A stretch of DNA of 42,744 nucleotides from Acidithiobacillus caldus ATCC 51756 (lineage in GTDB: Bacteria; Pseudomonadota; Gammaproteobacteria; Acidithiobacillales; Acidithiobacillaceae), in NCBI RefSeq assembly GCF_000175575.2, contig NZ_CP005987.1, positions 129,229 to 171,972 of the forward strand, in the 5' to 3' direction. Numbering within the stretch: the first letter of the stretch is position 1; each line of letters starts with the position of its first letter. The notes below the pieces were generated by a model that worked only from the letters and a program-made list of their open reading frames with translations, was not told where the DNA came from and did not search any database. Positions 11,967 to 37,279 of the stretch are shown in pieces. A program made the position numbers and the translations under genes.

Positions 11967-12176
11967 GTGGGACGTAACACCCCCAAGACCCTGCGGGTAT
12001 GGGTGAATCAAGCCGCAGTAGAGGCCGGCAGCCGGCCCGGGATGCCAGCGTCGGAACGACAGCGCATCCAGGAACTGGAGCGGGAGGTCAAGGAGCTGCG
12101 GCGAGCCAATGAGATCCTGAAGCTGGCCAGCGCGTTTTTTGCCCAGGCGGAGCTCGACCGCCGATGCAAGCGCTGA
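11967..12176 (+). pseudogene. IS3 orfA, N-terminus missing
   Basis: The remaining frame reads '[20 protein letters not shown]', then the leucine-zipper-like '[19 protein letters not shown]' and '[15 protein letters not shown]', the standard C-terminal two thirds of IS3 orfA. The N-terminal helix-turn-helix is gone, so OrfA and any OrfAB fusion would not bind the ends. It overlaps orfB by 13 nt. Confidence 0.8.
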
Positions 12177-13464: not shown

Positions 13465-14880
13465 ATGGTGACAAATATCCAAACCACGCAGTCCCTAAAA
13501 GGATCGAGTCTGGGTTTAATGGAGGCGGTGGGTCAATCGCTAGCAAATATATCACCAACACTAACTCCAGCGTTAAATATGGGTGCTGTGGTCGCGCTGG
13601 CTGGACAGGGTACGTGGTTGGTGTATGTGGTAGCGACGATCGCGCTTATTATAGTAGGCCTAAATATGTCTATCTTGGCAAGCAGATTTGCTGCTGCCGG
13701 GTCATTTTTTGTTTTTATTTCACGATCTCTCGGCCCGATGATGGGAGGCCTTACTGGATGGGCCCTAATACTGGCGTACATAGGGACCGCCATGGCATTG
13801 TTGGCAGGGCTTGCGATTTTTGTAAACAACACGTTAGCCCCTCTTGGTCTAACCATACCGCCGATTGTGAGTTACTTAATATTCGGTGCATTAGCTTGGT
13901 ATTTGGCATATAGGGACATAAAGCTTTCGTCCAGAATAAGCCTTATAATAGAGGCTATATCAGTCACCGCTATATCCATCTTGGTTTTTTCTGTGGTTGG
14001 GAAAAACTATTCACCTTCAGTTATAGGTACGCAGATCACAATATCTGCTATACCGTTGAAAGGAATGTTTGAAGGAGTTGTTCTAGCTATCTTTTCATTT
14101 GTCGGTTTTGAGAGCTCGGTAACGCTGGGAAAAGAGACTAGAGATCCAACAAGAAATATCCCCCGAGCTGTGATGGGGAGTATGTTATTCGCAGGACTGT
14201 TTTTTACCATAATGGCTTTTGCTATGATTACGGCATTTAAGGGCAATGCGACTGCGTTTGGTAATGATCCTGCTCCGCTGGAGACGCTTCTCGGCTATCT
14301 CCATCTCGCTTTCTTGTCAACACCGGTATACGCCATCGCCTCTTTAAGTTTATTTGCCTGCGTTCTAGCATCCATAAATGCCGGATCGCGGTTGCTCTTT
14401 TCTATGGGCAGATATCAGTTTGTACATAAATCAATGGGCTTCGTGCATGCTTCACATCAAACCCCACATGTTGCGATAACAATTAGTTCTGTACTGGCAG
14501 TATTGGGCCCTATATTTCTGATTGATAAGGGCGCAATGAATACGTATGATATAGCTGGCACTATAGCGACATTCGGCTTTATCTTTGTATATCTTCTGGT
14601 CAGTATTTCCGCGCCACTATATTTGGCCAAAAATAGATCTGGTTCCATGTTGTCTGTTCTCCTGGGACTGATAGGATCCTGTCTAATGGCTGCCGCGTTT
14701 TTTGGGAGCGTATATCCGGTTCCAGCTTACCCATTCAATTTGCTACCGTACATTTTTATCGCGTATTTGCTCATTGGAATGGCGATGTTATTTCGTCTTA
14801 AGTATGTATCTCCTGCTATACTTGAGAGAGTCGAACTTGATTTGGAAGGCAATGAAGGAGCAATAATTGGAAAGAAATAG
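13465..14880 (+). CDS. APC-superfamily amino-acid/amine permease
   Basis: A 471-residue inner-membrane protein with about 12 hydrophobic segments and the APC signatures 'SLANISPTLTPALNMGAVVAL' near the N-terminus (unwound TM1) and 'IFSFVGFESSVTLGKETRDP' followed by 'TRNIPRAV' after TM6. The ribosome site ggagg lies 8 nt before ATG 13465. NtrC-type and sigma-54 sites upstream indicate nitrogen-limitation control. With the methylamine pathway 4 kb downstream, an amine or N-methylated amino-acid substrate is plausible, but APC sequence alone does not fix it. The gene is markedly AT-rich compared with the pathway genes, so it was probably acquired separately. Confidence 0.85.
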   Translation: MVTNIQTTQSLKGSSLGLMEAVGQSLANISPTLTPALNMGAVVALAGQGTWLVYVVATIALIIVGLNMSILASRFAAAGSFFVFISRSLGPMMGGLTGWALILAYIGTAMALLAGLAIFVNNTLAPLGLTIPPIVSYLIFGALAWYLAYRDIKLSSRISLIIEAISVTAISILVFSVVGKNYSPSVIGTQITISAIPLKGMFEGVVLAIFSFVGFESSVTLGKETRDPTRNIPRAVMGSMLFAGLFFTIMAFAMITAFKGNATAFGNDPAPLETLLGYLHLAFLSTPVYAIASLSLFACVLASINAGSRLLFSMGRYQFVHKSMGFVHASHQTPHVAITISSVLAVLGPIFLIDKGAMNTYDIAGTIATFGFIFVYLLVSISAPLYLAKNRSGSMLSVLLGLIGSCLMAAAFFGSVYPVPAYPFNLLPYIFIAYLLIGMAMLFRLKYVSPAILERVELDLEGNEGAIIGKK

Positions 14881-16433: not shown

Positions 16434-16465
16434 GAGATTCTTTTATCCAGACCGGTCTTTCAGGA

Positions 16466-17372: not shown

Positions 17373-17564
17373 GCTTGAAGCTCCACCCCTGATGATGAAA
17401 ATAGTCCTGACCATTGGCGTTGCCAGTCGCTAGAGGCACCACAGCCGGGCGGTGCTTGGCTTCAGCGGGTTTATGGTGGATCGCTCTTTCTTCTCTTTGC
17501 AAGCCTCTGGTGAGGTCTGCGGGGCAGGTGTGCCCAGCGTTCTGCCGTTTTTTCACAGTAAGTG

Positions 17565-18158
17565 TCAGTCATGTTCGCCGTAAACAATCATTGAGAGAAA
17601 AAGAATGGGTAGTTGCAATAGGCTCTCCGGCCCGTGCGGGACATCGCCCCGAAAGGTTAGGGCGTCGCCGGGCTCCAGCCGATAGGTATAGTTGCCATGG
17701 CGGTATTCGATAATTCCCTCCAACATGTAGATGAACTCCGTGCCGGGATGCTGGAACGTGGGGAACACCTCCGCCGCGTCGTCCATGCTTATAAGAAACG
17801 GCTCAAATCGTTTTTCTGGACCTTGGTCATAGGCAAGCAGATGATAGGTATGTCCACGCCTCGTACCACGTCGAACCACCTCCATCCCCTCACCTTTTTT
17901 GACGAGCTGGGCGCTGCCTTCCGGTACGTCATAGTTCCTAAACAGTGCTGAGAGGGAGACCCCCAGCGCTTTGGACAATCGGGAGAGTGTGTCCAGGCTC
18001 ATTGCGGTCTGTGCATTCTCAATTTTGGACAGCATGCCCTTGCTTATTCCTGTCAGCTTGGCGACGTCCGCGATGGTTAGACCTTGGCGCGCTCGCAACT
18101 CTCTGATAACGCTACCTATATAACGTTCAAGATCGCTACCGGGTTCTATCGCTGCCAA
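17565..18158 (-). CDS. XRE-cupin transcriptional regulator (SutR/PuuR type)
   Basis: A 197-residue protein: an N-terminal helix-turn-helix (about 14-70, 'IRELRARQGLTIADVAKLTG' then 'ISKGMLSKIENAQ') and a C-terminal cupin (about 110-190) with H137-x3-E141 ('HPGTEFIYMLEG') and H175 ('GDVPHGPE'), which could bind a metal or small ligand. It is transcribed divergently from purU with 112 bp between the two starts, so it is the likely local regulator of the methylamine operon, sensing a pathway intermediate. Ligand and direction of control are unknown. Full family length and no defects. Confidence 0.85.
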   Translation of the reverse strand: MAAIEPGSDLERYIGSVIRELRARQGLTIADVAKLTGISKGMLSKIENAQTAMSLDTLSRLSKALGVSLSALFRNYDVPEGSAQLVKKGEGMEVVRRGTRRGHTYHLLAYDQGPEKRFEPFLISMDDAAEVFPTFQHPGTEFIYMLEGIIEYRHGNYTYRLEPGDALTFRGDVPHGPESLLQLPILFLSMIVYGEHD

Positions 18159-18190
18159 AAGGGGCTCCTGTGTTGCTCGTGTTTCGTGTC

Positions 18191-18207
18191 AGGAAAAATT
18201 CTTGCAT
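18191..18207 (+). promoter_or_regulatory. possible sigma-54 promoter before purU
   Basis: aggaaaaattcttgcat keeps GG and GC in -24/-12 register and has a perfect TTGCAT -12 box, but the -24 box is poor (aggaaa). It overlaps a sigma-70-like alternative (ttgcat, 17 nt, taatga). No NtrC-type site is obvious in this intergenic region. Confidence 0.3.
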
Positions 18208-18270: not shown

Positions 18271-19131
18271 ATGTTGGAGAAAGCGCATTACACCCTGACC
18301 CTCTCGTGTCCAGACCGAGTAGGCATTGTTGCGCGGGTTGCTGGATTCTTGGCGGAGCATGGAGGTTGGATTACCGAGGCAAGCCACCACGCAGATGCGG
18401 GGACCGGTCGCTTTTTTCTTCGCCAACAGATTCAGGCGGATTCTCTTCCTTTTGATTTGGAAGGGTTTCGAGGAAAATTTTCGGAGATCGCACACACGTT
18501 CGACATGCAATGGTCCATAACCGACTCAAGGCGGCGCAAGCGGATGGTCCTGATGGTATCCCAGCAAGGACATTGTCTATACGACTTGCTTGGACGGTGG
18601 CGGAGTGGTGAGTTGGCAGTGGATATTCCAGCCGTCATCTCGAACCACGAGACGTTCCGCGATTTTGTCGAGTGGCATGGGATTCCATTTCACCACATTC
18701 CGGTAACACCGGAGACCAAGTCGGCGGCATTCGCCGAGGTGTCTGCTATCTTTGACCGAGTAGGGGGTGATGTCTTGGTGCTGGCTCGTTACATGCAGGT
18801 CCTGGATGCGGAGACCTGCGCCCGCTACCCCGGGCGGATCATCAACATTCACCACAGCTTTCTGCCTGGCTTTGTGGGTGCTCGGCCCTATCATCAGGCC
18901 TACGCGCGTGGCGTAAAGTTGGTTGGCGCCACCTGCCATTATGTGACAGAGGATCTTGATCAAGGGCCCATCATCGAGCAGGACGTTTTGCGCGTGGATC
19001 ATGGAGATATGCCGACCGATCTCATCCGCTCGGGACGCGATGTTGAAAAAACGGTGTTGGCTCGAGGCCTTCGCTACCACCTCGAAGACCGGGTGCTACT
19101 GAATGGTCAGCGCACGGTCGTATTCCGATAG
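18271..19131 (+). CDS. purU: formyltetrahydrofolate deformylase
   Basis: 286 residues, normal length. An N-terminal ACT domain (about 5-85, 'TLSCPDRVGIVARVAGFLAEH') is followed by a formyltransferase-fold hydrolase domain with the catalytic triad N192, H194 ('INIHHSFLPGF') and D230 ('EDLDQGPIIEQ'). Hydrolyses 10-formyl-THF to formate and THF. It leads the operon, 11 nt before mgdA, and with FolD at the other end would drain the methyl carbon of methylamine as formate and free THF for N-methylglutamate dehydrogenase. PurU also accompanies sarcosine oxidase operons, so its presence alone does not define the pathway. Confidence 0.92.
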   Translation: MLEKAHYTLTLSCPDRVGIVARVAGFLAEHGGWITEASHHADAGTGRFFLRQQIQADSLPFDLEGFRGKFSEIAHTFDMQWSITDSRRRKRMVLMVSQQGHCLYDLLGRWRSGELAVDIPAVISNHETFRDFVEWHGIPFHHIPVTPETKSAAFAEVSAIFDRVGGDVLVLARYMQVLDAETCARYPGRIINIHHSFLPGFVGARPYHQAYARGVKLVGATCHYVTEDLDQGPIIEQDVLRVDHGDMPTDLIRSGRDVEKTVLARGLRYHLEDRVLLNGQRTVVFR

Positions 19132-19142
19132 GAGAATCTGCC

Positions 19143-20384
19143 ATGCCGTTGTCGCTACTTCGCTTTGCAGCATCCAAAACGCATCCAGAACCCCGCATGT
19201 TTCGGCGCTTCAACCAGTTAAAAGAATCCTACGATGTGGTCATTATCGGTGCGGGAGGACACGGGTTGGCAGCGGCTTATTATTTGGCACGAGACTACGG
19301 TATTACCAATATCTGCGTCCTGGAAAAGGGGTATATCGGCGGTGGTAACACAGGTCGGAATACCACTATTGTACGCTCCAACTACCTTACTCCCGAGGGT
19401 GTGCAGTTCTATGACGCCTCTATTCGCCTCTGGGAGGACCTCGCGGAGGATTTTGATCTCAATCTCTTTTATTCGCGACGCGGGCATTTCACCTTGGCCC
19501 ACAGCGATTCGGCTATGCGCACCATGCGCTGGCGAGCGGAAGTCAACAAACATTATGGGGTGGAATCCGAGGTAGTGGACGCCGATTTTGTCCATCGGGT
19601 CCTACCCATGATGGATCTGGAATGCGGCGGGCATGCGCCCGTATTGGGAGCTCTCTATCACGCACCGGGGGCTATCGTTCGGCACGATGCTGTGGCTTGG
19701 GGATACGGACGTGGCGCAGACCTGCGGGGGGTGGAAATTCACCAGCAGACCGCCGTCACGGGGATCGACGTGCGATCCGGTAAGGTGGTCGGGGTAAACA
19801 CTACACGAGGATACATCCATACCGACCGAGTACTCTCTGCTGTAGCTGGGTCTACCCCCGCCATATTAGACATGGTGGGATTGGAGTCCCCCATTTTCGT
19901 ACATCCTCTGCAAGCAATGGTGAGCGAACCGACCAAACCTTGGTTGGATCCCATTATCGTATCTGGCAGCCTGCATGTGTATGTGAGCCAGTCGGCGCGG
20001 GGGGAGCTGGTCATGGGTGCGTCTCTGGACCCCTATGAGCTCCACTCGACCCGTTCCACTCTGGACTTTGTGGAGGGACTGGCCGCTCATATGCTTGATT
20101 TGTTTCCATTCCTGTCGCCACTCAAGGTCGTTCGGCAATGGGCGGGCATGGCAGATATGACGCCGGATTTTTCCCCGATCATGGGGAAAACTCCGGTCGA
20201 AGGATTCTATTTGGATGCCGGATGGGGCACCTGGGGTTTCAAGGCCACGCCCATTGCTGGAAAAACCATGGCACACACCCTGGCGGAGAACCAGCCGCAT
20301 CCGTTGATTGCTGGATTTTCCTTGGATCGCTTTACCGATTTTTCCCTCACCGGCGAACGCGGCGCCGCCGCTGTGGGACATTAA
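19143..20384 (+). CDS. mgdA: N-methylglutamate dehydrogenase subunit A (sarcosine oxidase beta-like)
   Basis: A 413-residue flavoprotein with a DAO/SoxB fold: dinucleotide-binding GAGGHG (36-41) followed by the 'VLEKGYIGGGNTGRNTTIVRS' region, and 'IVRHDAVAWGYGRG' near 179-191, where the beta subunit of heterotetrameric sarcosine oxidase carries covalent FMN. C-terminal 'DAGWGTWGFKATPIAGKTMA' is typical. It forms the substrate-oxidising core with MgdB, C and D. Assigned to N-methylglutamate rather than sarcosine because gmaS and mgsABC follow in the same operon. Good ribosome site (ggagaatctgcc). Confidence 0.85.
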   Translation: MPLSLLRFAASKTHPEPRMFRRFNQLKESYDVVIIGAGGHGLAAAYYLARDYGITNICVLEKGYIGGGNTGRNTTIVRSNYLTPEGVQFYDASIRLWEDLAEDFDLNLFYSRRGHFTLAHSDSAMRTMRWRAEVNKHYGVESEVVDADFVHRVLPMMDLECGGHAPVLGALYHAPGAIVRHDAVAWGYGRGADLRGVEIHQQTAVTGIDVRSGKVVGVNTTRGYIHTDRVLSAVAGSTPAILDMVGLESPIFVHPLQAMVSEPTKPWLDPIIVSGSLHVYVSQSARGELVMGASLDPYELHSTRSTLDFVEGLAAHMLDLFPFLSPLKVVRQWAGMADMTPDFSPIMGKTPVEGFYLDAGWGTWGFKATPIAGKTMAHTLAENQPHPLIAGFSLDRFTDFSLTGERGAAAVGH

Positions 20385-20399
20385 GGGGAGGAGACCGCC

Positions 20400-20657
20400 A
20401 TGAAGATGTTGCCTTGTCCGATTTGTGGCACCCGAAATCTTGCGGAATTTTTGTATTATGGGGTACGTCGCTCGATGCCAGATCCGACACAATGCAGCGA
20501 CGCTGAATGGGCGCGCCACCTCTTCTTCCGCCAAGGCGCTGCGGGGGTCAAGGAGGAATGGTGGTGCCACCTGCCCTGCAACGAGTGGTTTGCGATCCGG
20601 CGGGATACGGCGACTGATGAGATCTTAGGCTCGGCCCGGATGGGGGATCCGACATGA
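20400..20657 (+). CDS. mgdB: N-methylglutamate dehydrogenase subunit B (sarcosine oxidase delta-like)
   Basis: An 85-residue zinc protein. C6-x2-C9 ('CPICGTRN') and H57/C60 ('CHLPCNEWF') match the Cys-Cys-His-Cys zinc site of SoxD. 'CNEWFAIRRDTATDEI' is the family's end. A structural subunit of the MgdABCD complex. Starts 15 nt after mgdA behind ggggaggag and overlaps mgdC by four bases (ATGA), so the subunits are translationally coupled. Confidence 0.88.
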   Translation: MKMLPCPICGTRNLAEFLYYGVRRSMPDPTQCSDAEWARHLFFRQGAAGVKEEWWCHLPCNEWFAIRRDTATDEILGSARMGDPT

Positions 20658-23569
20658 GCGGACGAAGATTGGCATCCGTTCCAGGCGAATGGATCGCTCG
20701 TGACCGACCAATTTCCTTTCGCTTCGAGGGCAATCCAGTCCAGGGTTTTGCCGGTGATACGGTATCCAGTGCCCTGTGGGCGGCCGGTCAGCAAGTCCTG
20801 GGACGGAGCTTCAAGTATCACCGACCGCGCGGAATTTTCTCCCTGGCCAATCATGATGTGAATACCCTCATGCAGTCTGGACGGCAGCTGAACCTGCGTG
20901 CCGACGTCTCTCTGCTCCAGGAGGGTATGGATCTGTATGCGGTAAATCACCGCGGAAGCCTTACCCGAGACCCAATGCGTGTCCTCGATCGCCTTTCTGC
21001 TTTCCTGCCAGTTGGATTTTATTACAAGGCGTTCTACCGAAAAAGCTGGTTTCCTCTCTGGGAGCGTATGTTCCGTCGTGTTGCCGGTTTGGGGGTTTTG
21101 GACCTGCACGGATCCCGGCAGCAAACCCCCAAGGATTACGACTTTTGCGATGTTGCTGTTGTCGGAGCAGGCTTGTCCGGGATGGCTGCGGCATTGGCGG
21201 CTGCCGAGCGAGGTGCGCAGGTCTTGCTGATTGACGAGAACCTCCACGCGGGGGGATCCGCGCAGTATCAGCGTGGGCGCCGAGCGGAGGGATACGAGCG
21301 GTCGCAAGACCTTGTACAACGGGTGCGGGAGCATCCGCAAATCCGCTTGCGTTTGAGCACGACCGTGGTCGGGTATTACGCTGACCATTGGTTGGCTCTT
21401 GTAGATGAAAAGAGGATGACCAAACTTCGCGCCCGTGCGATGGTTGTTGCCACAGGTGCGATTGAACAACCCGCCGTTTTCCGAAACAACGATTTGCCTG
21501 GGGTCATGCTGGGTTCGGCTGCGCAGCGGCTGCTGTATCGCTATGCCGTGGCTATTGGCGATGCACCGGTAATTTTGGCAGCCAACGATGACGCTTACCG
21601 ACTGGCGGAAGATCTGATACTGCATGGTATCGTGCCGGCTGGTGTGGTGGAAATGCGCAGCTCGGCCATGGCCGACGCGGCTCCGCGCGACTGGTTGCGA
21701 AGCCAGGGCGTTCCCATCTTTGATCAGTATACGATTGTTGAGGCGGTGCCCGATGCCAACGCTGTGGTGGTTACGGGAGCTCGAATTGCGCCCTGGGCAA
21801 ATGGTCGAGCAGACACCTCCCAGATACAGACACTCCCGTGTGACAGCATTTGCCTGAGCGTTGGCTGGGCACCGGCAGCCCATCTGCTCTACCAGGCGGG
21901 AGCCCGCATGCGCTATGCCGACGAGGTGGAGCAGTTTGTTCCCGCCACGCTGCCCCCTGGGATACTGGCCTGTGGGCGAGTGAATGGCATGTATACGGCC
22001 GCCCACAAACAGGAAGATGGCACACGCGCCGGGGAAGAGGCTGCGGCTTTCTTGGGTTTTGGTACGCCTTCCCAGCGGCGTGTGGCACCAGAAGCCCAGT
22101 CGCCGAGTCATCCGTGGCCGATCGTTGAGCATCCCGATGGCAAGAACTTCGTTGATTTGGATGAGGACCTTCAGCTTAAGGATTACGCCAATGCCATGCA
22201 GGAGGGTTTTGATAACATCGAACTGTTGAAACGGTTCACCACCAACGGAATGGGTCCGAGCCAGGGGAAACACTCAAATATGAATGCGCTGCGTATTCTT
22301 GCGCGCGCGCAAGGTTTATCACACGAGAAAGTCGGAACGACTACGGCGCGGCCTTTCTACCACCCAGTTCCGCTGGCCATCTTGGCTGGCAGGGGATTCC
22401 ACCCCTATCGTCACACCCCCTTGCACGAAGCCCACGTGGCGGCTGGAGCGCAGATGAGTCAGGCCGGGGATTGGTGGCGTCCCGACTTTTACCGCACGGA
22501 ACGCGAGCAAGAGCGTGGGGCGTGCATTCTTGCTGAGGTAAAAAATGTGCGCAACGGCGTTGGCCTGATCGATGTCAGCACACTCGGCAAGATCGAGGTC
22601 CGCGGACCCCAGGCAGTGGAGTTTCTTGAGCGTGTGTACATCTCCCGTTATGCCAAACTCAAGGTGGGGATGACGCGCTACGGGGTGATGTGCGATGAGG
22701 CAGGCACGGTCATCGATGACGGCGTGGTGGGTCGCCTGGCGCCAGATCACTTTTATGTGACCACGACGTCTTCGGGAGCGGCTGCTGTCTATCGCGACTG
22801 GAGTCGCTGGAACACGTGGTGGCGTCTCGATTGCGTGATCACCAACCTGACCGGGACCTTTGCCGCGATGAACCTGGCCGGGCCAGAATCTCGGGAAGTA
22901 CTGCACCAACTAAGCGACCTCGACCTCAGCGGCGATGCCTTCCCCTATCTTGGCATCCGCGAGACGCACATCGCGAATGTCCCGGCACGGGTGCTCCGGG
23001 TAGGATTCGTCGGCGAGTGGGGCTACGAAATTCACGTTCCCGCGAGTTGCGCCATGGCAGTATGGGAGGCGCTCATGACAGCCGGGGCAGCGTTCGGAAT
23101 TCGACCCTTTGGTGTGGAAGCCCAGCGTGTATTGCGTCTCGAGAAAGGCCATATCCTTTTGGGTCAAGACAGCGACGGTCTGACTCATCCCTATGAGTTG
23201 GGTCTCGACTGGGCCGTCAAGATGGATAAACCATTCTTTGTCGGCCAGCGTAGTCTGCAAGTTTTACAGAACCACCCACAGCGACGTCGATTGCGCGGCT
23301 TTCGATTGTTGCCTGCTTACCGAGAAACACCGCCTCTCGAAAATCACTTGATTATCGTTGACGATCGGATTGCCGGACGGGTGACGAGCGTCGCCTTTAG
23401 CCCAACTCTGGATGCCCATATCGGTTTGGCGCTCTTGGACAGAGCGTTCGCAGACGTAGTGGCGACGCTCCCGATACGGCTGGGCGATGGGCGAATGGTG
23501 TATGCGGAAGTGGTGGATACACCTTTCTATGATCCCGATCACCTGCGACAACGGGAGGTGATGGTATGA
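20654..23569 (+). CDS. mgdC: N-methylglutamate dehydrogenase subunit C (sarcosine oxidase alpha-like)
   Basis: 971 residues, the size of SoxA. In order: a ferredoxin-like segment ('GNPVQGFAGDTVSSALWAAG', ~27-46), a pyridine-nucleotide/FAD-type Rossmann region with GAGLSG (171-176) and 'AMVVATGAIEQPAVF', then a C-terminal GcvT-like tetrahydrofolate-binding domain (~590-960; 'VGLIDVSTLGKIEVRGPQAVE', 'GFVGEWGYEIHVPA'). The GcvT part lets the methyl carbon leave as 5,10-methylene-THF when THF is bound, otherwise as formaldehyde, which ties the enzyme to PurU and FolD. Overlaps both mgdB and mgdD by four bases. Confidence 0.9.
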   Translation: MSGRRLASVPGEWIARDRPISFRFEGNPVQGFAGDTVSSALWAAGQQVLGRSFKYHRPRGIFSLANHDVNTLMQSGRQLNLRADVSLLQEGMDLYAVNHRGSLTRDPMRVLDRLSAFLPVGFYYKAFYRKSWFPLWERMFRRVAGLGVLDLHGSRQQTPKDYDFCDVAVVGAGLSGMAAALAAAERGAQVLLIDENLHAGGSAQYQRGRRAEGYERSQDLVQRVREHPQIRLRLSTTVVGYYADHWLALVDEKRMTKLRARAMVVATGAIEQPAVFRNNDLPGVMLGSAAQRLLYRYAVAIGDAPVILAANDDAYRLAEDLILHGIVPAGVVEMRSSAMADAAPRDWLRSQGVPIFDQYTIVEAVPDANAVVVTGARIAPWANGRADTSQIQTLPCDSICLSVGWAPAAHLLYQAGARMRYADEVEQFVPATLPPGILACGRVNGMYTAAHKQEDGTRAGEEAAAFLGFGTPSQRRVAPEAQSPSHPWPIVEHPDGKNFVDLDEDLQLKDYANAMQEGFDNIELLKRFTTNGMGPSQGKHSNMNALRILARAQGLSHEKVGTTTARPFYHPVPLAILAGRGFHPYRHTPLHEAHVAAGAQMSQAGDWWRPDFYRTEREQERGACILAEVKNVRNGVGLIDVSTLGKIEVRGPQAVEFLERVYISRYAKLKVGMTRYGVMCDEAGTVIDDGVVGRLAPDHFYVTTTSSGAAAVYRDWSRWNTWWRLDCVITNLTGTFAAMNLAGPESREVLHQLSDLDLSGDAFPYLGIRETHIANVPARVLRVGFVGEWGYEIHVPASCAMAVWEALMTAGAAFGIRPFGVEAQRVLRLEKGHILLGQDSDGLTHPYELGLDWAVKMDKPFFVGQRSLQVLQNHPQRRRLRGFRLLPAYRETPPLENHLIIVDDRIAGRVTSVAFSPTLDAHIGLALLDRAFADVVATLPIRLGDGRMVYAEVVDTPFYDPDHLRQREVMV

Positions 23570-24099
23570 CTATTGCTGCCAAACGACGGAGCCCTCTGCA
23601 GGGCTGGTCGACGCCCTTCGTAACTGCTGTCGATCTCTCTCTGGAGCCGCGTTGGGGGTGTAAGGGGCCCGGGGCAGCTGCCTGGTTGCAGGAGCAAGGG
23701 AACCCCGTCCCGTCGTTGCCGAATACCTGGGATTCGGGCGATGCAGTTGCAGTGTACCGGCTCGGTCGAAGTGAATTTTTATTGGAGGGTCAGAAAGACG
23801 TAATCGATGGTCTCAGAGAATCTCCGATCCCCTCGGGCGTCTTCCCGGTCTTGCGAGATGGAGCGGCATTGCGTCTGCAGGGCGATGGAGTTCCGATCCT
23901 ATTGCGGCAGATTTGCGGTGTGAACTTTGCCGCTCTCGACCTGGGTACACGGCCCGTCGTTTTGACGAACATGATTGGGGTATCGGTCATAGCAGTCCCC
24001 GAAAGCGAGCTGCGAAGCTTGCGCTTATGGTTTGATGGAAGCTTTGGACACTATTTTCAGGAAACCCTGCGCGCACTCGCCGGGGAGTTACGGCCATGA
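23566..24099 (+). CDS. mgdD: N-methylglutamate dehydrogenase subunit D (sarcosine oxidase gamma-like)
   Basis: A 177-residue SoxG-type subunit, the most variable of the four. Recognised from position, size and the central '[13 protein letters not shown]' and C-terminal '[21 protein letters not shown]', a shortened GcvT-like fold. The start overlaps the mgdC stop (ATGA). Completes the heterotetramer. The gene ends 22 nt before gmaS. Confidence 0.8.
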
Positions 24100-24121
24100 G
24101 CTTGAAGGAGGGAGTAGGGCG

Positions 24122-25453
24122 ATGACGTACGAAGAAGCGTTGGAGTTTCTGCAAGAGCGGGATATTCGTTATGTTCTGGCGCAGTTCGTGGATATCCACG
24201 GTGCAGCCAAAACCAAGTCCGTGCCGGTCAAACATTTTGCCAGTATTCTCGAAAACGGTGCCGGTTTTGCCGGTTTTGCCGTGTGGGGACTGGGCATGGA
24301 ACCCCACGGACCGGATTTTATGGCCGTTGGCGACCTTTCTACCCTGTCTCTGGTTCCCTGGCAGCCGGGATATGCGCGCATCGTTTGTGATGGCCATGTA
24401 CACGGCAAACCCTGGCCTTTTGACACCAGGGTAACGTTGAAAACGCAAGTTCAGCGCCTGACTGAGCGGGGCTGGACCCTGTATACCGGATTGGAGCCGG
24501 AGTTTTCCTTGCTGCAGCGAGACGACCACGGGCGTATCCATCCCTGTGACCCGAGTGACTCTCTGCCAAAACCGTGTTACGACTACAAGGGGCTCTCTCG
24601 ATCGCGAGCGTTCTTGGAACGGCTGGTAAGTAGCTTGATCGCCTGTGATATCGATGTCTATCAAATTGACCACGAGGACGCCAATGGGCAGTTCGAAGTC
24701 AATTATACCTATACCGACTGTTTGCGCTCTTGCGATCAATTCACCTTTTTCAAAATGGCAGCGGCGGAAATCGCTCACGACATGGGATTGATCTGTTCTT
24801 TCATGCCCAAGCCCTTTCCCAATCGGCCGGGGAATGGGATGCACATGCATCTCTCTATCGGCAATGCTGAGGGCCAGAACTTGTTTGCCGACGCGGGCGA
24901 CCCCAAAGGCCTTGGCTTGTCTTCCGTCGCATACCATTTTCTTGGCGGGTTGCTTGCACACGCACCGGCTCTCGCTGCCTTCTGTGCGCCTACGGTCAAT
25001 TCTTACAAGCGGCTCGTGGTCGGCCGTTCCCTGACGGGCGCCACCTGGGCTCCAGCCTACATTAGCTATGGCGATAACAATCGGTCCTCTATGGTCCGCA
25101 TTCCTGGTGGGCGTTTGGAGTTACGCCTTCCAGATGGATCCAGTAATGCCTATCTGGCTACCGCCGCGGTCATTGCGGCTGGCTTAGATGGAGTCGATCG
25201 AAAGCTGGATCCTGGGGCTCCAGTGAATGCCAACTTGTACGATTGGTCACCTGAGGCACTCAAGGAAGCAGGGATAGGGGTCCTTCCACAAAACCTGCAC
25301 GAGGCCTTGCTGGCCCTTGAGGCGGATCCAACCGTGCGTCAGGCCCTCGGTCCTGTAGCTGAGGAGTTTCTGCGTCTCAAGCACATGGAATGGGTGGAAT
25401 ATATGCGCCACGTTTCGGATTGGGAGCTACAGAGTTATCTGGAGTTCTTTTGA
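24122..25453 (+). CDS. gmaS: gamma-glutamylmethylamide synthetase (glutamine synthetase-like)
   Basis: 443 residues. Glutamine synthetase fold with the catalytic '[10 protein letters not shown]' (E125, E127), '[13 protein letters not shown]' (E192) and 'GNGMHMHLS' blocks and the C-terminal '[18 protein letters not shown]'. Ligates methylamine to glutamate with ATP, giving gamma-glutamylmethylamide. ATG 24122 is chosen because gaaggaggg stands just upstream; the frame is open further up but runs into mgdD. Lies between mgdD and mgsA exactly as in known N-methylglutamate clusters. GlnT-type glutamine synthetases are close relatives, so substrate is inferred from context. Confidence 0.87.
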
Positions 25454-25464
25454 GCAAGCAAGCT

Positions 25465-25480
25465 CGTGCCGTTGGGCACG
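25465..25480 (+). other. short hairpin between gmaS and mgsA
   Basis: A 6-bp stem cgtgcc / ggcacg with a 4-nt loop in the 46-nt gap, followed by aaaggag, the mgsA ribosome site. No T-run, so it is not a terminator; it might adjust mRNA stability or relative expression. Confidence 0.3.
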
Positions 25481-25499
25481 GAGAAAGGAGAATGCAGCC

Positions 25500-26402
25500 A
25501 TGTGTGGGATCGTTGGTCTGTTGATCAAAAAAGAAGAGTTGTATCCCCAATTAGGGGGCTGGATGCTGCCCATGCTGCAGGGGATGACGGAGCGTGGGCC
25601 AGATTCTGCGGGTGTCGCCGTATTTATCGATAACGTCTCGGAAGCACAGTCTCAGATCAGCTTGTATGTTGGACAGGCTGCAGGATATGGGTGGGCAGCC
25701 CTGGCTAAACGGATGGAGGACGATCTGCAAACGAGGGTGACTATACAGTCGTGCGCCAACCATGCGATTTTGCAGAGCGATATCCAAGCTACCCAAAAAA
25801 TTCAATCTTGGGTACGGGACAATGCCCCGGAGGTTCAAATGCTGGCTCTAGGCCATCGGATGATCGTCTACAAGGATGTGGGACGCCCGGCCGAAGTGGC
25901 CGATCGGTATGCCCTGGGAACGGTGCAGGGGAGTCACTTGGTGGCACACACACGCATGGCCACAGAATCCGCTGTTACCCCGGATCGGGCGCACCCCTTT
26001 ACGGCGGGAAAGGATTTTTGTTTGGTGCACAACGGCTCCCTGTCCAACCCTTACAGTCTCCGCCGTACCCTGGAAGCCGAGGGGATCGTCTTCGCTACCG
26101 ACAACGATACCGAGGCCGCATGCCGCTTTCTGGAATGGCGTTTACGCGAAGGCGATACGCTGGAAGCAGCCATTGAGAAAAGCTTTTCGGCGCTTGATGG
26201 GTTTTTCACTTTCCTGATGGGGACGACGGATGAAATGGCTCTAGTACGCGATCCTTTTGCCTGTAAACCCGCCGTTGTTGCTGAAACTAGCGATTATGTT
26301 GCCATCGCCTCAGAGTTCCGAGCCCTCGCGCATCTTCCGGATATCGATCATGCGCATGTCTTTGAGCCAGCCCCGGAGGAGATTTACCTATGGAAGGTCT
26401 GA
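25500..26402 (+). CDS. mgsA: N-methylglutamate synthase subunit A (class II amidotransferase domain)
   Basis: 300 residues starting MCGIVG, so removal of Met exposes the nucleophile Cys of Ntn-type glutamine amidotransferases. 'VAHTRMATESAVTPDRAHPF', 'HNGSLSNPYSLRR' and 'DNDTEAACRFLEWRL' match the GltB/PurF amidotransferase domain as a stand-alone protein. It would release the methylamine from gamma-glutamylmethylamide. The ribosome site gaaaggag is strong; the 3' end overlaps mgsB by 13 nt. Confidence 0.88.
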   Translation: MCGIVGLLIKKEELYPQLGGWMLPMLQGMTERGPDSAGVAVFIDNVSEAQSQISLYVGQAAGYGWAALAKRMEDDLQTRVTIQSCANHAILQSDIQATQKIQSWVRDNAPEVQMLALGHRMIVYKDVGRPAEVADRYALGTVQGSHLVAHTRMATESAVTPDRAHPFTAGKDFCLVHNGSLSNPYSLRRTLEAEGIVFATDNDTEAACRFLEWRLREGDTLEAAIEKSFSALDGFFTFLMGTTDEMALVRDPFACKPAVVAETSDYVAIASEFRALAHLPDIDHAHVFEPAPEEIYLWKV

Positions 26403-27088
26403 CCTTCGATCTGCGCAACACCTCGGTGCGTGAGATCAATCAATATTTGCATCAAACTATTGCTCAGGATACTGGCGGGACCGTCGCCATTGAACATCCC
26501 GATGGGGCGCACAATTTGGCCGTGGGCTTGAATGCCCCATGGAAGGTGCACATTCTTGGTCACGCAGGGTATTACGCTGGCGGGATGAACCAAAAAGCAA
26601 CCGTTATGATTGATGGAAGTGCCGGCACTGGTGTCGCAGAAAACATGATGAGCGGACGGGTACACGTTCGTGGATTTGCATCCAATGCGGCAGGGGCATC
26701 CGCTCATGGAGGGCTTTTAATTATCGATGGAGACGCCGGACTGCGCTGTGGAATTTCGCTGAAAGGTGGGGATATTGTTGTTGGGGGTTCGGTCGGTAGT
26801 TTCAGTGCATTCATGGCGCAAGCAGGACGTATGGTTGTCTGTGGTAATGCGGGCGATGCTTTTGGAGATTCGCTCTACGAAGCAGTGCTGTATGTAAGGG
26901 GTAAAATTGCGTCTCTGGGGGCAGATGCGCAGGAGGAGCCAATGCAAGAAGCAGACTATCAGGCCGTTGACGCTTTATTGCGTGCAGCGGGAACGGACTA
27001 TCGGCACTACGATGCGCAACAATTCCGCAGGATCGCCTCGTCACGCAAACTTTATCATTGGAATGCCGACGCACGACACGACTACTGA
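26390..27088 (+). CDS. mgsB: N-methylglutamate synthase subunit B (GXGXG beta-helix)
   Basis: 232 residues. Repeated G-x-G-x-G turns ('MIDGSAGTGVAENM', 'IIDGDAGLRCGISLKGGDIV', 'VCGNAGDAFGDSLYEAVLYV') form the right-handed beta-helix found as the C-terminal domain of glutamate synthase GltB, here separate. A structural/scaffold subunit between the amidotransferase and the FMN subunit. Overlaps mgsA by 13 nt; mgsC starts 13 nt after its stop. Confidence 0.88.
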   Translation: MEGLTFDLRNTSVREINQYLHQTIAQDTGGTVAIEHPDGAHNLAVGLNAPWKVHILGHAGYYAGGMNQKATVMIDGSAGTGVAENMMSGRVHVRGFASNAAGASAHGGLLIIDGDAGLRCGISLKGGDIVVGGSVGSFSAFMAQAGRMVVCGNAGDAFGDSLYEAVLYVRGKIASLGADAQEEPMQEADYQAVDALLRAAGTDYRHYDAQQFRRIASSRKLYHWNADARHDY

Positions 27089-27101
27089 GAGGATTTACAG
27101 C

Positions 27102-28460
27102 ATGAAAACCGCGAATCACCACGTTCCTGCACAAGAAATATCCGCCGGCTACGACCCGACAGTTCTTAGTTATATCCAACAGGCGGCGACGCATGGTCTC
27201 TACGAAATCCGTGGGTTAGGTGCAAAACGCAGAGTGCCGCACTTCGATGACTTGTTATTACTGGGGGCCTCAATGTCGCGTTACCCCCTTGAAGGGTATC
27301 GTGAAAAATGCTCTACACAAACAGTGCTTGGGACACGGTATGCCAGCAAGCCCATCGTCTTGGATATTCCGATCACTATCGCCGGTATGAGTTTTGGAGC
27401 CCTTTCGGCGTCGGTGAAGGAAGCGTTGGGGCGGGCTGCCTCTGCTGTCGGAACTTCAACCACAACGGGCGACGGTGGAATGACGGAAGAGGAGCGGATC
27501 GCATCAAAAATCCTCGTGTATCAATGTTTACCTTCGCGCTATGGATTCCGGCCAGATGACCTACGTCGTGCCGATGCAATCGAGATTGTCATTGGCCAAG
27601 GTGCGAAGCCAGGGGGTGGTGGCATGTTGCTGGGACAAAAAATTAATCCTCGCGTGGCGGCCATGCGTACCCTACCGGCCGGGATTGACCAACGTTCTGC
27701 TTGCCGCCATCCCGATTGGACTGGTCCAGACGACCTTACGATAAAAATCCAGGAGCTCCGTGAGATTACGGATTGGGAGAAGCCGATATACGTTAAAATC
27801 GGTGCGTCTCGCACCTATCACGATGTAAAACTTGCTGTCCACGCCGGTGCCGACGTAATCGTGTTGGATGGGATGCAGGGGGGAACAGCCGCAACCCAGC
27901 AGGTCTTCATAGAACATGTGGGCATTCCCACCCTGGCTGCGCTGCGTCAGGCGGTGCAGGCTCTGGAAGATTTGGGAATGAAAAACACGGTGCAGTTGGT
28001 AATTTCTGGAGGTATCCGCACCGGCGCGGACGTTGCCAAGGCGTTGGCAATGGGGGCAGACGCGGTATCCATAGGACAAGGAGTGCTCATGGCGATGGGC
28101 TGTAATGCGCCGACATGGACGGACCTCGCTGGAAACGCAATAGACGCACAGGAGGACTACCAAACCCTGGGGACAATGCCGGGAGCATGTCACCACTGTC
28201 ACACGGGGCGTTGTCCCGTCGGCATAACGACTCAGGATGCCATTCTGGAGAAACGATTAACTCCAGATTGGGCAGCGAAGCGGGTTCAGAATTATCTGCA
28301 AACGCTCACTATGGAGTTAACTACTCTGGCACGTGCATGTGGAAAGAGTAACGTCCATCATCTGGAGCGAGAAGACTTGGTAGCGCTCACCGTGGAGGCG
28401 GCCGCAATGGCCAGAGTACCGCTTGCAGGAACAGCATGGGTGCCTGGACTGGGAGGTTAG
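27102..28460 (+). CDS. mgsC: N-methylglutamate synthase subunit C (FMN, glutamate synthase-like)
   Basis: 452 residues. The GltS FMN/TIM-barrel domain is clear: 'IGQGAKPGGGGMLLGQK' (164-180), 'VKIGASRTYHDVKLAVHAGAD', 'VISGGIRTGADVAKALAMGAD', and a 3Fe-4S-type cluster motif C363-x2-C366-x4-C371 ('CHHCHTGRCPVGI'). Transfers methylamine, channelled from MgsA, to 2-oxoglutarate and reduces it to N-methylglutamate. ATG 27102 has gagagga upstream; the frame is open earlier but overlaps mgsB. Last gene of the GC-rich block. Confidence 0.9.
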   Translation: MKTANHHVPAQEISAGYDPTVLSYIQQAATHGLYEIRGLGAKRRVPHFDDLLLLGASMSRYPLEGYREKCSTQTVLGTRYASKPIVLDIPITIAGMSFGALSASVKEALGRAASAVGTSTTTGDGGMTEEERIASKILVYQCLPSRYGFRPDDLRRADAIEIVIGQGAKPGGGGMLLGQKINPRVAAMRTLPAGIDQRSACRHPDWTGPDDLTIKIQELREITDWEKPIYVKIGASRTYHDVKLAVHAGADVIVLDGMQGGTAATQQVFIEHVGIPTLAALRQAVQALEDLGMKNTVQLVISGGIRTGADVAKALAMGADAVSIGQGVLMAMGCNAPTWTDLAGNAIDAQEDYQTLGTMPGACHHCHTGRCPVGITTQDAILEKRLTPDWAAKRVQNYLQTLTMELTTLARACGKSNVHHLEREDLVALTVEAAAMARVPLAGTAWVPGLGG

Positions 28461-28566
28461 ATATAATTCTCAGAAACTGCCCAGCTAATCATATGGAGGC
28501 ACTATTATCACCACCGTAATACAGGATTGACAGATACCATCTTAACCAATTCTTAGGATACACCTA

Positions 28567-29433
28567 ATGACCGCAAACATACTTGATGGAAAGTCTCTAG
28601 CCAGATCAATCATCAACGATCTGAGTAGACGTGTCTCTCAACTTACTTTTCATAAGCTCACACCGGCTCTCGCCGTCATACTTATTGGAGATGATCCAGC
28701 ATCGGCATTATATGTTAAAAACAAGGCAAACGCCTGCGACCAATGCGGAATAAAGAACATTATCTACCGCTATAATAACAACGTTTCACAACAACAAATC
28801 ATAAATGATATATACATGTTAAATGATGACCCAACTATTCACGGTATTCTAGTTCAGCTACCACTTCCTAAACATATAGATATACCGCATATAATCGAAT
28901 CTATATCGCCACGAAAGGACGTTGATGGTTTTCATCCATATAATGTTGGGAGATTGGCCGTTGGATCACCAACGCACCTCTTGCCATGCACCCCAAAGGG
29001 CGTAATCAACTTACTTAAATATAATCATATATCTCTATCTGGAGCAAACGTAGTTGTTATAGGAGCGAGCAATATTGTTGGTAAGCCATTATCTAACATG
29101 CTTATAAATGAGGGCGCAACCGTCAGTATATGTCACAAACTGACAACCAATCTGAGTGATCACACCAGAAATGCTGACATATTGATTTCAGCCACTGGAC
29201 ATGCCGGACTAATCTGCAGCGAAATGGTAAAGCGAGCGGCCGTTGTTGTTGACGTGGGCATATCGAGAAATGCCGATGGCAGAATCATTGGTGATGTCGA
29301 TTACGAAAACGTGCGCAAAATAGCATCATGGATAACCCCCGTACCAGGCGGTGTTGGCCCAATGACTATTGCCATGCTTCTTGAAAACACTGTTTGTGCC
29401 GCAGAACGGCTCCTCAACATTTCGAGTGCGTAA
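28567..29433 (+). CDS. folD: methylene-THF dehydrogenase/cyclohydrolase
   Basis: 288 residues. Catalytic Y49/K53 ('YVKNKANACDQCGI') and 'PRKDVDGFHPYNVGRLAVG' are conserved, then the NADP site 'VVVIGASNIVGKPLSNML' and 'PVPGGVGPMTIAMLLENT'. Converts 5,10-methylene-THF to 10-formyl-THF, the substrate of PurU. It follows mgsC after 106 nt, which contain a perfect TTGACA (28527-28532) but a poor -10. Codon use is much more AT-rich than the mgd/mgs genes, so it was acquired separately. The last eight codons (RLLNISSA) lie in the left end of the ISL3 copy starting at 29408, yet the enzyme's conserved core is complete. Confidence 0.9.
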   Translation: MTANILDGKSLARSIINDLSRRVSQLTFHKLTPALAVILIGDDPASALYVKNKANACDQCGIKNIIYRYNNNVSQQQIINDIYMLNDDPTIHGILVQLPLPKHIDIPHIIESISPRKDVDGFHPYNVGRLAVGSPTHLLPCTPKGVINLLKYNHISLSGANVVVIGASNIVGKPLSNMLINEGATVSICHKLTTNLSDHTRNADILISATGHAGLICSEMVKRAAVVVDVGISRNADGRIIGDVDYENVRKIASWITPVPGGVGPMTIAMLLENTVCAAERLLNISSA

Positions 29434-30833: not shown

Positions 30834-30881
30834 ACCACATGCTCCAAGATTTTTCGACGAATATCGCTCGTGCGTCTATTT

Positions 30882-32573
30882 ATGAAAAAACCATATAGAG
30901 ATACTTTTGAAATAAATTACATTAAAAACCAGAGCTACTGTCGTGTTGCTCATTATTCCATATCAGCGAGTCAAAATAAAACCAATCAAGATTATATAGC
31001 TTATGCTGACGGAGGAGCCAGCCTGCGACAAACCCGCGGCAATATTTGGGTGCTGGCCGATGGTATGAGTGGTGGAAAAGCTGGAAGAGTAGCAGCAGAG
31101 TTGTTCGTCCGTCAACTAATTGATGGGTACACTCACCTTTCCCCAACCATATCAATTGCGAGCGCCCTAGGACGAGCAGTTGATGCTGCGAACAGATCAA
31201 TACATTGGTTATCACGCAACGATCCCAATCTTGCTGGAATGGCAACAGTCTTTTGTGCGATAGTAATGCGCGGATGGGAATTTTATGCGTGTTATGCGGG
31301 GGATGTTCACTGCTACCGATGGCGCAACAGAAATATTACTCTACTAACTGTTGATCATACTATTAAAGCTATGATTGGCAATATTGTATACCGAGCGGCG
31401 GGCATGAATGATGTCTTGAATACTGATTTTCACAAGTTAGATATAGAACAAGATGACATTATTATACTAATGTCTGACGGCTGCTATCGTTATCTTAAAG
31501 AACGAGAAATTAGAGAAATCATGATTTCAGCCAGTTCACTTGCAGATGCTGCAGAGAAAATGGCCAATTCCGCAATTGTTAACGGATCTCAGGACGATGT
31601 CACGATTGGCTTATTAGAGGTACTTTGGCTCCCATCAAAAACGATGAGCATTTTTGAGCACGAGTTTTTTTCAATACCGATAGGGAGACCGCCAAACATT
31701 GGCGCCAATATTGATGGTTATCATATCTTGGAGCACATATATGATGGGTATCAGAGCGTATTATTTCGGTCATTTGATGAAAAGAGCAATACTGAGAAGG
31801 TCTTAAAGTTTCCAAAGCGGCAATTAAATGATGATGATGCAATCCGGCGCACATTTGCCACTGAAGATTGGGTTTCATCGATTGTGTCTAGCCCGTGGTT
31901 GGTACGCACAGCACATGACGGACGCTGCCGCAGCCAAGTATATACTGTAATGTTATCATATAAAGGTCAAAATTTATCAATGATAATTAGATCGAAGACG
32001 CTGACCGTAAGGGAAGGACTAGAAATCATGAAGCAACTCGCAAAAGCTGTCTACGCTTTACATAAATTAAATATCATACATCGAGATATCAAGCCAGACA
32101 ATGTCTTCATCACCGACCGTGGCGATGTGTTGCTGCTTTTTGCTCTCGTACCTGGCACAATAGACCAGAAATCAAATCTTATGCTAGGAACACTGGCATA
32201 TATGGCACCAGAAATAATTGCCGGTGCGCCAGGAGATAGTCGTTCAGATGTGTATTCACTTGGTGTTACTTTCTATTATATGTTCTCTCGATGGAAGCCC
32301 CCGATCGACGCTGAAGGTTACAGATCGCTGCGCCGGTATCGTCCTGACATTCCAGACTGGCTTGATAGAGTTATAAAAAAAATGGTCTCAGCAAATCCTA
32401 GAGATCGATATTCGGATACACTTGAAGTTCTTTATGATATTGAAAGCCAAGTAGAAATGTTTGGTCTTGAAGGTGTTCAAAAAAAATCTAAGCTCATTAT
32501 TAGAGAAGTAGTTTTGCTTAGAGTGGTTGTGTTGTTGCTTATTATTATAATTTTCGGCTCTTCGACATTTTGA
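30882..32573 (+). CDS. PP2C phosphatase / Ser-Thr kinase fusion with degenerate kinase DFG
   Basis: 563 residues from ATG 30882 (an in-frame GTG lies at 30870). Numbered from that GTG: PP2C domain ~30-250 with metal-binding Asp sites 'NQDYIAY' (D41), 'LADGMSGG' (D64), 'LMSDGCY' (D203) and 'GSQDDVTIGL' (D242/243). Kinase domain ~283-530: K313 ('EKVLKFP'), 'IIHRDIKPDNVF' (H404-R-D406, N411) and 'YMAPEII'. Where DFG should be there is L423-F-A, so the Mg-binding Asp is missing and the kinase may be dead. One hydrophobic C-terminal segment ('VVLLRVVVLLLIIIIF') anchors it in the membrane. The final GSSTF and stop come from the ISL3 element inserted at 32556. Strongly AT-rich. Confidence 0.88.
   Translation: MKKPYRDTFEINYIKNQSYCRVAHYSISASQNKTNQDYIAYADGGASLRQTRGNIWVLADGMSGGKAGRVAAELFVRQLIDGYTHLSPTISIASALGRAVDAANRSIHWLSRNDPNLAGMATVFCAIVMRGWEFYACYAGDVHCYRWRNRNITLLTVDHTIKAMIGNIVYRAAGMNDVLNTDFHKLDIEQDDIIILMSDGCYRYLKEREIREIMISASSLADAAEKMANSAIVNGSQDDVTIGLLEVLWLPSKTMSIFEHEFFSIPIGRPPNIGANIDGYHILEHIYDGYQSVLFRSFDEKSNTEKVLKFPKRQLNDDDAIRRTFATEDWVSSIVSSPWLVRTAHDGRCRSQVYTVMLSYKGQNLSMIIRSKTLTVREGLEIMKQLAKAVYALHKLNIIHRDIKPDNVFITDRGDVLLLFALVPGTIDQKSNLMLGTLAYMAPEIIAGAPGDSRSDVYSLGVTFYYMFSRWKPPIDAEGYRSLRRYRPDIPDWLDRVIKKMVSANPRDRYSDTLEVLYDIESQVEMFGLEGVQKKSKLIIREVVLLRVVVLLLIIIIFGSSTF
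32548..32555 (+). repeat. 8-bp target-site duplication, left copy
   Basis: TAATTTTC directly before the ISL3 left end, identical to 33860-33867 directly after the right end. Confidence 0.9.
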
Positions 32574-33859: not shown

Positions 33860-33867
33860 TAATTTTC
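33860..33867 (+). repeat. 8-bp target-site duplication, right copy
   Basis: TAATTTTC directly after the ISL3 right end. The bases that follow (tcg att gtt tcg tga) are the original last codons of the phosphatase/kinase gene. From there to 34118 I see only AT-rich DNA with TATAATGCG twice (33925 and 33952), possible -10 elements for the next gene. Confidence 0.9.
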
Positions 33868-37149: not shown

Positions 37150-37244
37150 TTCTCGGACCTCAAAAATGCGGTTGGAGGGGGGTTCAGGGCCACCGGGGCG
37201 GATCGTAGGCTCCGGGTGGCCTCTGGTTACTGCCTCGATACCGC

Positions 37245-37279
37245 CTATCGTAACATAATTGGCTATTATGTATCGATAG
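37245..37279. repeat. 15-bp inverted repeat with 5-bp centre: candidate recombinase core site
   Basis: The arms ctatcgtaacataat and attatgtatcgatag pair except for a ta/at swap and flank tggct. The dif/loxP-like shape just upstream of the tyrosine recombinase suggests the binding and crossover site. A further half-site-like attatgtta occurs near 37343. Confidence 0.5.

Follow-up and report, generated by a model that had tools for sequence, protein, structure and literature searches.

The nitrogen sources described for sulfur- and iron-oxidising acidophiles are ammonium or N2, and acid growth is a trait of the family Acidithiobacillaceae. A stretch of 42,744 nucleotides from the genome of Acidithiobacillus caldus ATCC 51756 (contig NZ_CP005987.1, positions 129,229 to 171,972; hereafter the window) contains a block of genes resembling the N-methylglutamate (NMG) pathway of methylamine breakdown. 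What would such a block do in this organism? The window forms the end of the 172-kb contig C2, the genome comprising 2.99 Mb in four contigs. From gene identities and order, conserved residues, predicted folds, co-occurrence and a putative regulatory site we infer catalysis, substrate, direction, regulation and a nitrogen role. It is quite likely that the block represents a complete NMG operon for methylamine catabolism, probably used for nitrogen. It would place organic-amine nitrogen use in sulfur- and iron-oxidising acidophiles, and the 7 carriers and 22 non-carriers within one family offer a natural comparison.

Gene content and order of the block

All ten co-oriented genes were found to be intact, full-length open reading frames (ORFs), arranged next to a divergent XRE-cupin regulator gene in the order purU-mgdABCD-gmaS-mgsABC-folD (Table 1). 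The original prediction, made from the sequence alone, had described ten co-oriented genes with an adjacent divergent XRE-cupin gene, and this was confirmed by the open reading frames and by the domains found in the regulator. Its claim of a complete NMG gene set also holds: profile matches, gene order and start positions bear out both identities and completeness, and the eight pathway genes (mgdABCD, gmaS and mgsABC) are all intact. Nine of the ten block genes matched the expected families, the exception being mgdD, for which no Pfam or NCBIfam match was obtained at 0.001. The refined starts are an ATG at 24122 for gmaS (the TTG at 24032 falls within mgdD) and an ATG at 27102 for mgsC; note that the profile searches were run from the longer starts at 24032 and 26907. 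The block is not a chance assembly, because the same order and divergent regulator were found in 6 of the 28 other genomes of the family.

Overlaps of 4 bp were found at both mgdB/mgdC and mgdC/mgdD and one of 13 bp at mgsA/mgsB, while the gaps measure 11 bp (purU-mgdA), 15 bp (mgdA-mgdB), 22 bp (mgdD-gmaS), 46 bp (gmaS-mgsA) and 13 bp (mgsB-mgsC). The gap between mgsC and folD is 106 bp. The spacing described originally, with overlaps of 4–13 bp and gaps of at most 46 bp, is therefore correct for the nine genes from purU to mgsC and incorrect for folD.

The putative N-methylglutamate dehydrogenase resembles heterotetrameric sarcosine oxidase (1vrq, 2gag). Both have alpha, beta and gamma relatives recognisable by sequence or fold, a SoxD-type delta subunit, an HD motif and a folate domain; Mgd differs in scoring under the NCBIfam cut-offs and in being linked to gmaS-mgsABC. 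Residues 21–413 of MgdA align with the sarcosine oxidase beta chain, and His181 is the histidine of the shared HD motif, which we take to be the residue carrying flavin mononucleotide (FMN). MgdD is 38% identical to the MgdD of Methyloversatilis universalis EHg5. Modeling with AlphaFold (mean pLDDT 72, six sequences) gave a structure whose best match in the Protein Data Bank (PDB) is 1vrq_C, the sarcosine oxidase gamma chain (E 6.6e-7). Thus, a four-subunit MgdABCD is predicted to be present, with MgdD assigned by its relatives and by the fold of a model of moderate quality.

In the PDB, GmaS is matched best by the solved structure 9qur, titled 'Glutamate--methylamine ligase', with 742.9 bits compared with 364.8 for the second-best chain. 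GmaS scores over the cut-off of TIGR03105, a type III glutamine-synthetase-like family, and TIGR00653 (GlnA) remains under its own. By these profiles GmaS is of the glutamate-methylamine ligase type and not GlnA; the call is based on profile scores, since in the 91-row GmaS tree the host's own three GlnA rows stand on a branch of length 10. MgsA begins with MCGIVG, MCGIIG or MCGLVG (Cys2) in 85 of the 85 relatives extracted (82 when repeated genomes are subtracted). With GATase, GXGXG and Glu_synthase proteins encoded in order, a three-subunit MgsABC is predicted as well.

A functional comparison is offered by M. universalis. Strain EHg5 (L088) has the same eight genes mgdABCD-gmaS-mgsABC in the same order with an XRE-type gene adjoining, and its MgdA, MgdC, GmaS and MgsC are 78%, 57%, 71% and 77% identical to those of the host. 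It differs in being a methylotroph, and neither purU nor folD was matched (E up to 1e-6) within the 21 kb of L088. In another strain of the species, M. universalis FAM5, mutants in mgsC and in mgdD were no longer able to use methylamine (PMC5023235; statements cited by PMC number are taken from excerpts of those papers).

According to the enzymology of known families, GmaS would join methylamine to glutamate at the expense of ATP, giving gamma-glutamylmethylamide, and MgsABC would convert this compound and 2-oxoglutarate to N-methylglutamate with regeneration of glutamate. MgdABCD would then oxidise N-methylglutamate to glutamate and hand the methyl carbon to tetrahydrofolate (THF). FolD would oxidise the THF-bound carbon to 10-formyl-THF, from which PurU would free formate and THF. 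The divergent XRE-cupin protein would control the operon from the TTC-N7-GAA site, and the APC permease together with the PP2C/kinase fusion would serve uptake and its control.

Table 1. Predicted features of the NMG gene block and its surroundings (positions in the window).
Feature	Position	Strand	Evidence
Amino-acid permease of the APC type (candidate importer of the module)	13465..14880	+	AA_permease 7e-29
XRE-cupin regulator, divergent	17565..18158	-	HTH_3 and Cupin_2; 74–87% identical, same place, in six family relatives
TTC-N7-GAA-N7-TTGC, operator/promoter-like site in the xre–purU intergenic region	18183..18205	+	
purU, formyltetrahydrofolate deformylase	18271..19131	+	TIGR00655 342.3 bits, cut-off 285.95
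mgdA, sarcosine-oxidase-beta-like subunit of N-methylglutamate dehydrogenase	19143..20384	+	DAO 6.1e-64; 1vrq_B 375.9 bits
mgdB, delta subunit	20400..20657	+	SoxD 4.1e-27
mgdC, alpha subunit with folate-binding domain	20654..23569	+	GCV_T 255.7 bits, SO_alpha_A3, GCV_T_C; 1vrq_A 440.6 bits
mgdD, gamma subunit	23566..24099	+	Relatives and predicted fold
gmaS, gamma-glutamylmethylamide synthetase (glutamate-methylamine ligase)	24122..25453	+	TIGR03105 639.6 bits, cut-off 469.6
mgsA, N-methylglutamate synthase subunit (class-II amidotransferase)	25500..26402	+	GATase_6 1.8e-17
mgsB, GXGXG subunit	26390..27088	+	GXGXG 9.6e-10; 51–81% identical across NMG loci
mgsC, FMN glutamate-synthase-like subunit	27102..28460	+	Glu_synthase 3.3e-94
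folD, methylene-THF dehydrogenase/cyclohydrolase, separate low-GC end-piece	28567..29433	+	Both THF_DHG_CYH domains
PP2C phosphatase/Ser-Thr kinase fusion, co-occurs with block	30870..32573	+	Pkinase and PP2C domains

Distribution in the family and the accompanying genes

Among 29 Acidithiobacillaceae genomes, several of them less than 90% complete, NMG-type GmaS was found in seven, namely the host and six relatives at 76–86% identity. The relatives have the same gene order and divergent regulator, although the contig of G026 ends within mgsC. The other member of the host's genus, G001, is without the block. True PurU (at least 66%) was present in exactly the 7 carriers and in 0 of the 22 non-carriers. 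The same exact distribution was revealed for relatives of the APC permease (at least 54%; best non-carrier 35%) and for the long PP2C/kinase fusion (at least 32%; the G026 copy starts from residue 100). The non-carrier G012 gave a 28% match to the kinase half only. The chance of each exact co-occurrence is 6.4e-7 if the genomes were independent, which they are not, because most of the co-occurring genes are linked to each other and inherited jointly.

A four-protein tree was built from 33 rows (the host, 6 family loci and 26 other loci picked by hand). The seven family blocks form one clade (100/100) inside a 19-row group (98/96) whose remaining rows are betaproteobacterial or unnamed. The simplest reading of this single clade is one acquisition of the block into the Acidithiobacillaceae, followed by loss and/or transfer. 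A possible plasmid origin of the block was examined in the plasmid collection: no record there covers 80% of window positions 12001–34000, those of the listed matches that reach at least 99% are to insertion sequences (IS), and the mgdA stretch is matched at about 74% by two Paraburkholderia plasmids.

In L036, as well as in six NMG loci of Paraburkholderia/Burkholderia, the PP2C/kinase gene stands directly behind the permease gene. In the host window the permease lies on the opposite side of the block from the kinase, which is preceded by an ISL3 gene. In L037 the permease adjoins xre, and an insertion may therefore have parted permease and xre in the host window. The stretch at 16434–17564, on the permease side of the regulator, is without a long ORF and by eye resembles transposase remnants.

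Relatives of the PP2C/kinase protein were found in 36 records of the plasmid collection, with 25–34% identity among the 15 listed. Ten annotated loci (9 strains) of these 15 were analyzed, so that H37, H39, H41, H46, H47 and 21 unlisted records were left out, and in 10 of 10 the kinase relative adjoins a nitrate/nitrite, formate/nitrite or major facilitator superfamily (MFS) transporter; five also have nirBD. The proteins of these nitrate/nitrite uptake loci have the same fused domains and stand beside transporters; the protein of the NMG loci differs in its low identity to them and in that, in the L036 and Paraburkholderia/Burkholderia loci named above, its neighbour is an APC permease. A nitrogen role of the module gains support from the occurrence of this kinase type beside nitrogen transporters. 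Neither a permease-kinase/phosphatase link nor the kinase beside nitrate genes was found described in a literature search. In G008, two PP2C/kinase genes were observed (contig C31, 19809–21401 and 36931–38607), one of them behind folD with an internal stop and the other adjoining a second permease.

Since PurU, the permease and the kinase fusion co-occur with the block and this kinase type stands beside transporters, the unit is probably larger than originally described and would comprise uptake, a switch, the NMG route and the one-carbon folate exit. Methylammonium is fully protonated at acid pH and so cannot simply diffuse in. It is possible, though doubtful at this stage, that in acidophilic autotrophs the NMG route belongs to a nitrogen-scavenging kit that can be transferred. 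In such a kit the APC permease would import methylammonium, the PP2C/kinase protein would turn this import on and off through reversible phosphorylation, and an intermediate would be sensed by the XRE-cupin protein at the TTC-N7-GAA site, while permease, kinase/phosphatase, PurU and NMG genes would be gained and lost together. The co-travelling permease and kinase/phosphatase provide a testable idea for the uptake of a charged amine.

In order to describe the site upstream of purU, a pattern of TTC-N7-GAA followed by TTG(A/C), with spacers of 7–8 and 1–8 allowed, was used. Of 16 loci that contain both purU and xre, 13 have it no more than 200 bp ahead of purU, a count that is partly circular because the pattern was defined after seeing the alignment; subtraction of three repeated genomes leaves 10 of 13. 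Among 29 gmaS-first loci, which were not used for defining the pattern, though they are related by descent, 21 have it no more than 250 bp ahead of gmaS. Random 200-bp stretches contained it in 72 of 6250 cases. In the host, the site overlaps a -35-like box and is a candidate operator, from which the XRE-cupin protein probably controls the operon. A promoter/terminator scan gave no more than shuffled sequences did.

The folate genes at the two ends

The one-carbon folate exit proposed originally is chemically sensible, and the cluster gene encodes the only full PurU in the genome, the other matches being partial (29–32%). The direct product of Mgd could be THF-bound or free. MgdC has a folate domain; the product has been reported both as methylene-THF and as formaldehyde (PMC4543880) and has been predicted to be methylene-THF (PMC5023235). 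That PurU is found in exactly those family genomes that carry the block favours a THF-bound product that would need drainage to free THF.

The end gene folD differs in composition, with a G+C content of 42.7% (38% at third codon positions) versus 53–59% in the nine genes from purU to mgsC. In the family, the cluster folD genes likewise have a lower G+C content than the purU, mgdC, gmaS and mgsC genes with which they share a block, the difference from purU being slight in G003. A second folD was found in 4 of 7 carriers and in 0 of 22 non-carriers; carriers G015 and G013 are without it, the single folD of G022 was matched in two adjoining pieces, and the G026 contig is truncated as noted above. 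The other Acidithiobacillaceae cluster folD genes form a clade with several betaproteobacterial ones to which the host folD does not belong, and this hints that folD has been recruited more than once. A grouping of the four family cluster folD genes was rejected weakly (approximately unbiased test, p-AU 0.035; tested post hoc, after seeing the tree). Thus, the cluster folD is an end-piece, optional and of deviating composition. The idea that FolD and PurU make the route self-sufficient in THF is weakened: the cluster folD is not the source of such self-sufficiency, because the cell has another FolD (contig C1, 52% identical to the cluster FolD), and some carriers have no second folD.

To compare the arrangement outside the family, the best 80 of 577 relatives in genome contigs were surveyed; together with the six family loci they make 86 loci. 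The 80 include many Betaproteobacteria, along with Gammaproteobacteria, Cyanobacteria, single Planctomycetota and Acidobacteriota, and others. Full-flank loci, with at least 9 kb on both sides of gmaS, number 39 of the 80. Both mgdA and mgdC (at least 40%) were found in 26 of the 39, with purU in 13 and folD in 9 of these 26; in the 13 without mgdA/mgdC, neither purU (0/13) nor folD (0/13) was found. The purU gene lies directly before mgdA in 18 of the 86 loci (15 genomes).

Having purU and folD at the two ends had been regarded as little described, and as a novelty this was rejected: the arrangement was found in 9 of the 86 loci (7 genomes after subtraction of two repeats) and on the plasmid pBPHY01. 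The seven genomes are A. ferruginosus, A. sulfuriphilus, G008, the metagenome-assembled genome SZAS-76, Zoogloea oleivorans, Thiomicrorhabdus 6S3-12 and Nitrincola tapanii. The purU...folD arrangement is therefore recurrent. On pBPHY01 of Paraburkholderia phymatum STM815 (L161), xre, purU, mgdABCD, gmaS, mgsABC and folD follow in the same order with folD right behind mgsC, and the products are 47–79% (mgd, gmaS and mgs), 67% (purU) and 53% (folD) identical to those of the host. It differs in the orientation of xre (2552–3118, + strand), and no PP2C/kinase gene was found in the 18 kb read. On two further Paraburkholderia plasmids folD lies about 3.0 kb behind gmaS, judged by match positions. 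In L122, a record titled uncultured Ferrovum sp., an NMG block with folD behind mgsC was also observed; Ferrovum are acidophilic iron oxidisers.

The genes have also appeared together in print. Pseudomonas sp. C5pp, which uses methylamine as sole nitrogen source, shares the enzymes as well as purU and folD, and differs in having two operons 37.7 kb apart (gmas-mgsABC-amt and purU-folD-mgdABCD), an amt transporter and folD beside purU (PMC8292978). Donghicola sp. KarMa uses methylamine for nitrogen only and has an NMG cluster with folD, purU and XRE (PMC7574528), as do other Rhodobacteraceae (PMC7574528; PMC5313617); these organisms differ in being marine heterotrophs whose clusters also contain trimethylamine/dimethylamine genes. 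A single replicon with NMG operons and two folD-purU pairs has been described as well (PMC4543880). Thus, the pathway, the nitrogen use and the folD/purU and XRE link are already in print, and what is new is mainly the host family and the co-travelling uptake and control genes. An open-access literature search found no paper joining Acidithiobacillus and N-methylglutamate, and among the papers listed for Acidithiobacillus and methylamine none was on this subject by its title.

Proposed function and alternatives

The original prediction preferred nitrogen scavenging to methylotrophic use in an autotrophic acidophile. The host, a member of the Acidithiobacillaceae, is an autotroph by gene content, with two strong matches to the RuBisCO large chain. 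The nitrogen use is favoured by the type of the linked kinase and by the profile searches of the host genome, in which no formate-THF ligase was found and no PQQ (pyrroloquinoline quinone) alcohol dehydrogenase exceeded its cut-off. The exclusion of methylotrophic use did not stand in full, as carbon or electron use could be allowed by other genes of the host (see below).

Several points weigh against a functional methylamine operon serving nitrogen supply. IS elements flank the block on both sides. In the kinase half of the host fusion the DFG motif is missing (in-frame gap near 32130–32150), although D-[FYL]-G is present in 12 of 12 aligned loci (10 genomes). The PP2C motifs and the kinase HRD are kept, and the host switch may be broken or phosphatase-only. 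With these flanks and the inactivated-looking kinase half, the function of the whole is not assured. The NCBIfam scores for soxB, soxA and soxD are under the sarcosine-oxidase cut-offs, which fits Mgd and proves no substrate. In addition, purU is missing from 13 of the 26 full-flank loci that have both mgdA and mgdC, which shows that not every such locus requires PurU, and the short-flank loci L052 and L076 have purU without mgdA/mgdC. Finally, an FdhF/YdeP-family oxidoreductase (884.8 bits, over the cut-off) with FdhD beside it would, together with RuBisCO, permit use of the one-carbon unit as an electron or carbon source.

The last point supports the first alternative, in which the same pathway would serve mainly energy and carbon supply: formate from PurU would be oxidised to CO2 by FdhF/YdeP, with electrons passing to respiration and CO2 to the Calvin cycle, as in autotrophic methylotrophy. 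We consider this unlikely, as no Fdh-alpha over the cut-off was found in the host genome, the formate-THF ligase is lacking there too, the linked kinase/phosphatase type adjoins nitrogen transporters, and YdeP-type enzymes are poorly characterised. Another alternative is that the operon acts on a different substrate brought in by the APC permease, either an amine or an N-alkyl amino acid, such as ethylamine/theanine or even N-methylglutamate, or that the block detoxifies amines. The permease does resemble amino-acid carriers, and GMAS enzymes form theanine from ethylamine (PMC7677707), but the Mgd, GmaS and Mgs proteins are 38–78% identical to the set of a methylamine user (L088), which makes this reading very unlikely. 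That the block is an acquired, decaying island, no longer functional, is hardly probable: the IS genes on both sides, the loss of DFG and the deviating composition of folD would suit it, but the ten genes are of full length and both the key residues and the operator-like site are kept. Methylamine catabolism by a complete NMG operon, probably for nitrogen, is the reading we prefer.

A number of further observations concern the surroundings of the block and related loci. Transposases of the ISL3, IS3 and IS481 types and a tyrosine recombinase are encoded at 29468–30646, 12164–13075, 9551–10864 and 36226–37287. The ISL3 element at 32555–33861 is 99.8–99.9% identical to ISAtc2 of A. caldus plasmids, which points to IS exchange in the recent past. 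No tRNA gene was found in the first 130 kb of C2 or in the window. Contig C2 also carries a gyrase-B-type gene, two kdpA genes, a cellulose synthase and a TnpB-like protein.

Many gmaS-mgsABC loci, among them L057:2925–8367 and other Burkholderiales loci, are without mgdABCD and contain a DAO-family oxidoreductase gene instead, often with genes resembling those for electron transfer flavoprotein (ETF) and FixC. A DAO gene was present in 10 of the 13 full-flank loci without mgdC (6 of them also with ETF-alpha) versus 0 of 26 with mgdC. By their gene content these loci may encode a second, ETF-linked type of N-methylglutamate dehydrogenase, for which no description was found among the titles listed in a literature search. 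In the G015 locus (L036:1867–4647), a second glutamine-synthetase-like gene (28%) and mgsB-like and mgsA-like matches were observed upstream of the NMG block.

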